This document shows, piece after piece, positions 28,157 to 32,138 of a stretch of DNA of 44,319 nt; positions within the stretch are counted from its first letter, which is position 1; each line of letters opens with the position of its first letter. The position numbers were made by a program, and so were the translations under genes. This DNA comes from a bacterium. GTDB taxonomy: Bacteria; Krumholzibacteriota; Krumholzibacteriia; LZORAL124-64-63. The notes beneath the pieces were generated by a model. It was not told the origin of the DNA, did not search any database, and worked only from the letters and a program-made list of their open reading frames with translations. The stretch lies in the NCBI GenBank assembly GCA_003353795.1, contig PIVY01000016.1, positions 1 through 44,319 of the forward strand. Reading direction: 5' to 3'.

Positions 28157-30160
28157 CTACCGCACGAGCATCAATTTCAGCGCGCCGTCCGAATCCTGCG
28201 TCAGGATCCGGCAGAAGTACGTGCCCGACGGCACGGCCTGGCCCGCGTCGTCGCGTCCGTTCCAGCTGGCCGAGTGCTGGCCCGGCTGGCGCATGCCCTC
28301 GTCCAGCGTGCGCACCAGCCGACCCCGCACGTCGAACACGCCGAGCGTGATCTCCGCCCGGTTCGCCACGGCATAGTTAACGGTCGTCAGGGGATTGAAT
28401 GGGTTGGGTGCATTGCCGAGCAATCTGGTGGCCGGGGGCGTCTCGTCGCCCGGGACGTCGAGCGGGTCGGGGACCAGCCAGTTCACGATGCCCTGCATGA
28501 GGGCGGCGCGGTCGGCCGCGTTGTCGATGGCCTCGAAGCCGAAGGCCAGGTAGACGACACGGAAGGTTCCGGTGTCGGCCTTGATCGCACCGTTGCGGGC
28601 GGCATCGTAGGTGAGGATCACCGACGCGTCGGCGCCCCGCGGGTCGATGTCGCTGGGGTACTCCTGGTTATTGGCGCCGTCGCCGCCCGAGATGTTCAGG
28701 CTCAGGCCATTGCTGATGGGATCACCCGCCACGCCCTGGAGCTGCAACATGTTGGTGTCGTCGGCGACGTAGGTGGCGTGCAGGTAGTTCTGGTACCACG
28801 CGAGAGCGGCGCCCCCCTGGTCCGCCATCTCCCAGCCGATGTCCTGGCCGGTGATGAAGAGAGTGCCGCCGCCGTCGAGATAGGCCGACAGGGCCGCGCG
28901 ATCGTCGGCGTCGACGGTGGGGAAAGCCCAGCCGCACGACCACACCACGGCGTCGAAGTTGTCGAGGACGGCCGCGGTGACAGCCGTGGAGTTGCGATCC
29001 CAGGTTGCGAAGCTCCGGCCGGTTCCGGCCAGGGCGGGCGCGAAGTAAAGGCTCTCGTAGTCGTAGGCGCCGTCGTCATCGACGAGGAGGATCTCGGTGC
29101 CGGTCGTGATGACCTTGTAGGTGATGGAGCGGTCGCCGGACGCACCGCCGCGAGAATGGAAATTAAGGGTGACCTCGCCCTCGCCGGGGCCGGCGGCGTC
29201 GATGACCACGTTGAACGAGCCGTGGTCGCCGGCGCCGAGGAGCAAATTCAGCGCGGTGAAATGGCTCGTCTCGTGGATGAAGTAGCTGTTCCAGCCGGCG
29301 GGCAGGCTCGACGTGTCGAGGGTCACGTCGTACATGTCTTCCAGGTTGCCGGCGTTGAACAGCGCCGCCTCCTCGAAAGTCACGACGCCGCTGTCGATGA
29401 CCGTGCGATCGCCGAGAGCGAAGTAACGCATGCAGTAGTCGGGTGTCGGACGGGAGTTGCAGGTCTGCAGGACGGCCTTGTCGCCGTCGCGCTGTACGAA
29501 GGCGATGAGGCGCATGTTGGCCGGATTCCAGGTGCCGTCGATGCTGAACGACAGGGGCACGACCTGCGTCTGACCGGCCTCGCTGATGGTCAGCGACACG
29601 TCGGGCAGCAAGTCCCGCAGGATGTTTTCGTAGACGGTGCCGCCGTAGGTGAGGTGATCCTCGACCACGGCCACGCGCAGATAGGTGGCGGCGATGTCGG
29701 CGAGGTCGTCGGTGAGTTCCAGATTCACGGTGCACGAGGACCCGAGGTTGTCCAGAACCACGTCGGTGAGCGACATCTTCAGCGGTGTGGCGTCGTCCAG
29801 CAGCTTCTGCACCACCGGATCGTAGACGCTGCCGTTGATGGCGTCGGTGCCGGCACCCACGATCATGTCACCGCCGTTGAAGAGCAAGTGGGGCAGGCCG
29901 TTGTTCCCATAGTACGTGATCCGGGCGTCCGAATCGGGAGCGCCGAGACCACCACTGGTGGCCATGTATTCGATGGAGTCGAACTCGATGACGTCGTAGC
30001 GGTCGTGCATGACCTGCAGACCGGCGCGTGCGCGCGGGCAGTAGCCTCACCATGTGGCCGAGCCCATTTCCACGACGATATTCCGGGGCACCAGAGCCAT
30101 GGCCGGGATGGCCGTGACCGCGAGGAGGACGAACGCGAGCAGCAGGCGGGTGGCTTTCAT
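28157..30160 (-). CDS. Predicted exported selenoprotein, Omp28-like, Sec-Gly-Tyr-Cys
   Basis: Read through an in-frame TGA at 30049-30047, this 667-residue protein begins at an ATG with AAGGA upstream and has a signal peptide (MKATRLLLAFVLLAVTAIPA, to about residue 22). Next comes VVEMGSATW-U38-GYCPRARAG: a thioredoxin-fold redox site of the Omp28-like family, in which U38 stands where C-x-x-C proteins have the first Cys; C41 is the second. YYGNNGLPHLLFNGG follows as the family's cis-Pro/loop block. A ThuA/glutamine-amidotransferase-like domain lies at about 355-565 (ILLVDDDGAYDYESLYF, GGGTLFITGQDIGWEM), and a PNPFNP sorting tail at about 597-667. Without recoding, the ORF would begin at 30010 and lose both signal and redox site. 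A stem-loop sits just after the TGA. A point mutation or sequence error at a Cys codon is the alternative. Confidence 0.75.
30000..30023 (-). promoter_or_regulatory. SECIS-like hairpin for UGA recoding
   Basis: On the minus strand CGGTC-TGCA pairs with TGCA-(C)-GACCG: 9 base pairs with one bulged C and a 5-base loop GGTCA. The loop begins 32 bases after the in-frame TGA. Bacterial SECIS elements are small stem-loops inside the coding region just after the UGA, with G near the start of the loop; the spacing and loop fit. This is a visual match, not a computed fold. Confidence 0.6.
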
Positions 30161-30527: not shown

Positions 30528-32138
30528 ATGGGAGAGCATGTGCGCAAGCTTCGAGTCGGTGTCATCGATCTGGTCCACAAGGCACCGACGAAAGCGCTCT
30601 ACGCGCGCGTCATGCACGCCAACCTCGCCGCCATCATGCCGCAGGCCGTCGCCGCGTGGTGCCAGGAGCTCGGGCACCAGGTCGAGTTCGTCTGCTACAC
30701 CGGCCTCGAGAACCTGGCGCGCGAGTTGCCGCAGAACTGCGACCTGGTCTTCTTCTGCGGATTCACCGAGGCGGCCCAGCTCGCCTACGCCCTCAGCAAT
30801 CTCCTCCGCTCACAGGGAGCCGTCACGGCCCTGGGCGGTCCGCATGCGCGTTGCTATCCGGAAGACGCGCAGCAGTACTTCGATTACGTCCTGGGTTTCA
30901 CTAGCCGACCGTTGATCCAGGACGTCCTCCAGGATTGCGCCCAGCACCGACCGCTCGGCCTGCACATCTCGGCGCAAGGGCACCCGGCGACCCTCCCCTC
31001 GCTGGAACAACGGTGGCCCTTCGTCGAACACGCCCTCCGCAAGGCGCCGATCTTGAAGCTCGTGCCGATGATCGGCAGCCTCGGTTGCCCCTACACCTGC
31101 CCCTTCTGCATCGACTCGACCGTTCCCTACCAGCCGTTCTCGTTCGAAACCCTCAAGTCGGACCTTCGATTCCTGAGCTCGCGCATGGCGAAGCCGCGGG
31201 TGGGCTGGCACGACCCCAACTTCGGCGTTCGCTTCGACGACTATCTGGACGCCATCGAGGACGCGGTGCCGCCCGGCAGCATCGAGTTCGCCGCCGAGAG
31301 TTCCCTGGCCCTGCTCACAGAACCTCACGTCAAGAGGATGCAGCGCAACGGTTTCAAGGCGCTCCTGCCGGGCGTCGAATCCTGGTACGACATGGGCCAG
31401 AAATCCCGCTGCGGCGGTCGCCAGGCCGAGGATCGCGTGAAGCACGTTTCCGAACAGATCAACATGATCATGCGCCACGTGCCGTACGTGCAGGCCAACT
31501 TCGTGCTCGGTCTCGACAGCGACGAGGGCGCCGAACCGTTCGAGCTGACCAAGAAGTTCATCGACCTGACGCCGGGCGTGTTTCCCGGCTACTCGCTCCT
31601 GACGGCCTTCGGTCGCGCGGCGCCGCTCAACCTGGAGTTGCAGCTGAGCAACCGGGTGATCCCGTTCCCATTCCACTTCCTGGACAACAACCACGCCATG
31701 AACGTCCAGCCGCTCAACTACGAGTGGAGCGAGTTCTACGATCGGGTGATCGACCTTTCCGCCTACACGTTCTCGTGGCGAACCATGGGCCGACGCCTGA
31801 AGGCCAGTCGCGATTCATTGCCGCGCTGGCTGAACCTCGTCCGCGGCGTGTCGTCCGAGGGACGCGGGCGTCTGGCCCAGTTCCGGAACCTACGACGCCG
31901 GCTCGACACCGACCAGGATCTGCGGGCGTTTCTCGAGCGCGAGACCGAACAGACTCCTGGCTACTACACCGAGATCGTGCGGCGGGACCTGGGTGCGCTC
32001 TGGAAGTGGTTGCCCGAGGGCGCGCTGCAGCACGACCCCCAGGCTTACCTGAAGGCTTCGCGGCTGGGCGATCCGTCGGTGGCGACCCGCGTGGTCGACG
32101 CCATGCCTCGTGAGGGGCTGGCTGGCGCGGGGTCCTGA
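30528..32138 (+). CDS. Radical SAM protein with B12-binding-like N-domain
   Basis: A 536-residue enzyme. Residues 1-130 resemble a cobalamin-binding fold of the B12-dependent radical SAM class (RVGVIDLVH, VEFVCYTGLENL, DLVFFCGFTEAAQLAYALS, VTALGGPHARCYPED), though the D-x-H-x-x-G motif of B12 binding is absent. The cluster motif C187-x3-C191-x2-C194 (GCPYTCPFC) binds a 4Fe-4S cluster that cleaves SAM. A GGxxPExxxx-like region (FAAESSLALL) and VQANFVLGLDSD follow. The C-terminal 170 residues are helical and basic. ATG at 30528, or GTG at 30540 with GGGAG just before it. Substrate unknown. Confidence 0.8.
   Translation: MGEHVRKLRVGVIDLVHKAPTKALYARVMHANLAAIMPQAVAAWCQELGHQVEFVCYTGLENLARELPQNCDLVFFCGFTEAAQLAYALSNLLRSQGAVTALGGPHARCYPEDAQQYFDYVLGFTSRPLIQDVLQDCAQHRPLGLHISAQGHPATLPSLEQRWPFVEHALRKAPILKLVPMIGSLGCPYTCPFCIDSTVPYQPFSFETLKSDLRFLSSRMAKPRVGWHDPNFGVRFDDYLDAIEDAVPPGSIEFAAESSLALLTEPHVKRMQRNGFKALLPGVESWYDMGQKSRCGGRQAEDRVKHVSEQINMIMRHVPYVQANFVLGLDSDEGAEPFELTKKFIDLTPGVFPGYSLLTAFGRAAPLNLELQLSNRVIPFPFHFLDNNHAMNVQPLNYEWSEFYDRVIDLSAYTFSWRTMGRRLKASRDSLPRWLNLVRGVSSEGRGRLAQFRNLRRRLDTDQDLRAFLERETEQTPGYYTEIVRRDLGALWKWLPEGALQHDPQAYLKASRLGDPSVATRVVDAMPREGLAGAGS

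Follow-up and report, generated by a model that had tools for sequence, protein, structure and literature searches.

The locus and its protein

The window, by which is meant the whole 44,319-nucleotide stretch analysed (contig PIVY01000016.1 of assembly GCA_003353795.1, from the phylum Krumholzibacteriota), carries on its minus strand a UGA-containing reading frame that extends from an ATG at 30160 to a stop codon ending at 28157. A stem-loop lying downstream of the UGA had been put forward in a first-pass annotation as a candidate bacterial selenocysteine insertion element (SECIS), and its sequence, strand and coordinates proved exact. The features discussed below are as follows.

28157..30160, minus strand: selenoprotein gene, encoding a 667-aa exported Omp28/thioredoxin-like protein (from translation and profile matches)
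30047..30049, minus strand: in-frame UGA, selenocysteine (Sec) at residue 38 in ATW-U-GYC, a UxxC motif (from translation and homologue alignment)
30024..30035, minus strand: upstream 4 bp hairpin GCGC-GCAC-GCGC, of doubtful role (from folding and comparison within clade 1)
30000..30023, minus strand: candidate bacterial SECIS hairpin, with a 9 bp stem CGGUC-UGCA / UGCA-c-GACCG and one bulged C on the 3′ side (from sequence, fold and relatives)
30023-30015, minus strand: 5′ arm of the candidate SECIS hairpin (from sequence)
30014-30010, minus strand: its apical loop, GGUCA (from sequence and loop comparison across relatives)
30009-30000, minus strand: its 3′ arm, comprising UGCA (30009-30006), the bulged C (30005) and GACCG (30004-30000) (from sequence)

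The 667-residue protein has a signal-peptide-like start and a C-terminal part resembling FlgD-Ig domains and secretion tails. Its score against Omp28 (Pfam accession: PF11551) is 33.8 bits, just under the gathering cut-off of 34.9 bits, and profile comparison gave weak hits to 1fo5, a thioredoxin (E 0.007), and to 5y1a, a hemin-binding protein of 35 kDa (E 0.02); a thioredoxin fold for this Omp28-like protein is weakly suggested. The profile NF045500, listed as GOS_C with a UxxC motif (PMC13188914), represents a group that goes back to a 2008 prediction by Zhang and Gladyshev, in which it was assigned a thioredoxin-like fold (PMC2398784). Because the window protein reaches only 54 bits against this profile (E 1.8e-14), where the curated cut-off is 200 bits, it is, by profile score, a distant relative of NF045500 and no curated member: the two share the same Omp28/thioredoxin-like region, with Sec in UxxC in the N-terminal thioredoxin-like part, but the window protein belongs to a separate subfamily, here found only in Krumholzibacteriota and bearing the C-terminal FlgD-Ig or secretion-tail-like part. 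Among the papers searched, no link between Omp28 and a selenoprotein was found.

A match to SprA_N, of the type IX secretion translocon, is present in the same genome (L124, G000:C314:2695-3213; 52 bits), and since the C terminus of the window protein weakly resembles type IX sorting tails, the protein may be secreted type IX cargo. The divergent neighbour on the plus strand (30528-32138) is radical-SAM-like, at 25.6 bits to PF04055, under the cut-off.

Selenocysteine machinery and the reading of the UGA

The source genome (5.7 Mb in 953 contigs, 86% complete) encodes SelA (451 bits), SelB (331 bits) and SelD (352 bits), as well as SelC, a tRNA-Sec scoring 70.6 bits, above the Rfam cut-off, to which ARAGORN assigns the anticodon tca. 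The SelD gene itself has one in-frame TGA (L080, G000:C77:2981-3901; SAG-U-AAK), followed by a strong hairpin, GUCCAGG-GGA-CCUGGAC. SelB was detected in 74 of 80 genomes of the phylum; UGA-containing homologues accompany no SelB match in two genomes, G033 (65% complete) and G035 (81% complete).

Omp28-like homologues occur in 41 of the 98 genomes searched, mostly with a TGA at the same place, and four further Omp28-like genes of the source genome each have a single in-frame TGA there; the close relatives bearing names are Candidatus Krumholzibacteriia/Krumholzibacteriota metagenome-assembled genomes. Neighbouring pairs of UGA-bearing Omp28-like genes lie on one contig in three cases (L014 with L015 on G000:C539, and on G024:C104 and G001:C2). 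More distant Omp28-like genes (L016 and L017 of the source genome, and L076) also have an active-site UGA, with hairpins of their own ∼17–20 nt after it, whose loops are GGA, AGUU and GGA.

A standard-code ORF caller begins the window gene at an internal ATG (30010), as would be expected if no recoding took place and the UGA were a genuine stop codon, a lesion in a pseudogene or an artefact of sequencing. Against this reading, which we regard as barely credible, the frame is conserved ahead of the UGA (VPR..VxE.GSATW), the UGA recurs in 20 genes of the window gene's own group (clade 1) and 29 of a second Sec clade, in many genomes and always aligned to the active-site Cys, and the genome has all the Sec genes. 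The first-pass annotation had taken the hairpin as the main independent support for recoding, but stronger evidence comes from the alignment of UGA with Cys across dozens of homologues and from the full set of Sec genes in the genome.

Fit of the hairpin to the bacterial SECIS model

In the E. coli system, the G and U of the SECIS loop contact SelB. The E. coli fdhF SECIS holds CGGUUGCAGGUCUGCACC, with which the apical part of the window hairpin has UGCAGGUC in common; both the fdhF element and the Zhang–Gladyshev consensus are, like the window hairpin, stem-loops within the coding sequence soon after the UGA, with a small loop that has a G at its start followed by G or U. They differ in spacing, the loop lying 32 nt after the UGA in the window gene and 18 nt in fdhF, and while the fdhF SECIS has a bulged U, the bulge of the window hairpin is instead on the 3′ side.

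Published rules for bacterial SECIS (bSECIS) elements specify a loop of 3–9 nt with a G in its first two positions followed by G or U, a spacing of 16–37 nt, a stem of 4–16 bp and an energy at or below −7.5 (PMC13188914). The window hairpin conforms throughout: the 32 nt from the UGA (30049-30047) to the apical loop and the G at the loop start, both as first annotated, fall within the rules, as do the loop motif (GGUCA), the 9 bp stem with its single bulge, and the energy. The second and third loop positions (G-U) begin a Val codon. Folded alone, the 24 nt hairpin is predicted by RNAfold to adopt exactly the structure CGGUC-UGCA-[GGUCA]-UGCA-c-GACCG, at −11.7 kcal/mol and 77% of the ensemble, and 5 of 200 dinucleotide shuffles fold as well (z −2.75); in a 60-nt context the total energy is ordinary (z −0.42), with the hairpin still within the minimum-energy structure. 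A scan of the window against Rfam gave no match at gathering thresholds.

That such a hairpin might arise by chance in GC-rich coding DNA had been allowed for from the outset, and for the single gene the caution holds. In codon-preserving simulations, p was 0.039 for the 27-nt hairpin region and 0.20 for any hairpin satisfying the bSECIS rules; given p values of only 0.04 to 0.20, the lone hairpin is weak evidence, mildly above chance, and the case therefore rests on its relatives.

Conservation and covariation among UGA homologues

Clade 1 comprises 20 UGA genes, whose codons over the hairpin align gap-free; the window UGA aligns with UGA in the 19 relatives and with UGC in one further homologue, L026. 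The loop positions 32–34 after the UGA read NGU ([G/C/A]GU) in 20/20 of the UGA genes, the GU being invariant, and the stem is kept in 19 of them by compensatory changes, with the inner pairs 29–31 observed as CG, GC, TA or GT; GC, AT, CG or GT; and CG or AT. The inner stem is accordingly UGCA/UGCA in the window gene, UCGC/GCGA in L014, UCAC/GUGA in L027 and UUGC/GCAA in L028, around loops of 5 or 6 nt. An Ala-to-Gln change separates the window gene from L018 and displaces the UGC of the 5′ arm by one base, yet the arm still pairs with the same 3′ partner. The exception is L023, in which the stem is broken and a hairpin CGCC-GGUCU-GGCG occurs at +24, 8 nt closer to the UGA.

Across 13 representatives (37–67% protein identity to the window protein), 50 inner-stem pairs were observed, exceeding all 5000 codon-preserving simulations (mean 39.2, sd 2.4, maximum 47), and 0 of 20000 trials in which arms were swapped between genes reached the observed pairing; both statistics ignore kinship, though the representatives are highly divergent as proteins. 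At the level of the family, the codon-preserving folding test proposed in the first-pass annotation is decisive for the stem.

These comparisons bear on the suggestion that the gene is truly a selenoprotein gene but the hairpin a GC-rich by-product, with the SECIS elsewhere, for example in the 4 bp hairpin at 30035-30024. Some rule-satisfying hairpin at −7.5 kcal/mol is found in 60% of codon-preserving versions of the gene, and the upstream hairpin occupies the place of the SECIS of the second Sec clade. The loops of the upstream hairpin are variable and without GU, its stem is reduced to ∼3 bp in several relatives, and its loop begins 15 nt after the UGA, just outside the 16–37 range, whereas in the hairpin at 30000-30023 the loop GU is invariant and the stem covaries; we consider a SECIS elsewhere very improbable. 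On account of these loops the upstream hairpin, which adjoins the SECIS and is partly kept in clade 1, was rejected as a SECIS; it may simply follow from Arg/Ala codons or be left over from the other SECIS position.

Loss of the element in a cysteine homologue

The sole close Cys homologue, L026 (UGC), branches within the Sec clade (support 98/87) and, being nested there, has most likely lost Sec. In this gene GAU replaces NGU, the stem is lost and no hairpin passes the bSECIS rules, as expected of an element under selection in genes with UGA but expendable once Cys is encoded, for which this one close homologue serves as the control. The other check proposed in the first-pass annotation, a comparison of TGA- with TGC-bearing homologues, is also borne out. 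In the wider family, a rule-passing hairpin was found in 48/53 UGA homologues versus 1/8 Cys homologues, a gap explained in part by amino-acid background, which alone favours the UGA set (0.43 versus 0.09).

The first-pass interpretation of the hairpin as a bacterial SECIS element is hence supported with high confidence by results computed here, namely the hairpin itself, the way it is conserved and covaries among UGA genes together with the family simulation, its loss in the Cys homologue and the Sec machinery genes. The element is real and of an already known kind (bSECIS), and the hairpin is very probably the signal by which UGA is read as selenocysteine in this Krumholzibacteriota bacterium's exported thioredoxin-like protein. 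By analogy with known bacterial Sec decoding, the cell's SelB would bind the mRNA hairpin through its C-terminal domain and deliver Sec-tRNA(UCA) to the UGA, which precedes the loop by 32 nt, and selenocysteine would thereby become the first residue of the UxxC redox motif; a redox role of the Omp28-like protein would be anticipated on the same grounds.

A probable second SECIS position within the family

In the second Krumholzibacteriota Sec clade (L033-L066; 29 genes), which belongs to the same family and has its UGA at the same residue, the element is UUCCGC-GGUC-GCGGGA or variants thereof, with loops of GGUC, CGUG or AGUU and an outer pair varying between TA, CG and GC. It shares with clade 1 a [G/C/A]GU loop on a GC-rich stem, the GU likewise beginning an invariant Val codon, but its loop lies 17 nt after the UGA rather than 32 nt, 15 nt closer, and the position of the clade 1 loop is occupied by GA, without GU, in 27/29 genes; the loop motif is therefore shared while its place differs. 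On balance, we favour a picture in which one family in one phylum has its SECIS at two places (17 or 32 nt), possibly with a third (24 nt, in L023), NGU being kept at the cost, to the protein, of an invariant Val codon, and in which either the SECIS moved within a gene that still encoded Sec or this one residue acquired Sec on two occasions. The deepest forks of the tree are weakly supported, with long branches, and are compatible with SECIS movement or a second gain of Sec.

Implications

The known selenoproteins gain a lineage-restricted, multi-copy group of exported members, the active site of which would be missed by gene callers choosing the internal ATG. The occurrence of two SECIS positions inside one family is the most interesting part, the family amounting to a natural experiment of rare clarity on how bacterial SECIS elements function: a single phylum and residue, two spacings, one invariant loop dinucleotide, and one Sec-to-Cys change accompanied by loss of the element.
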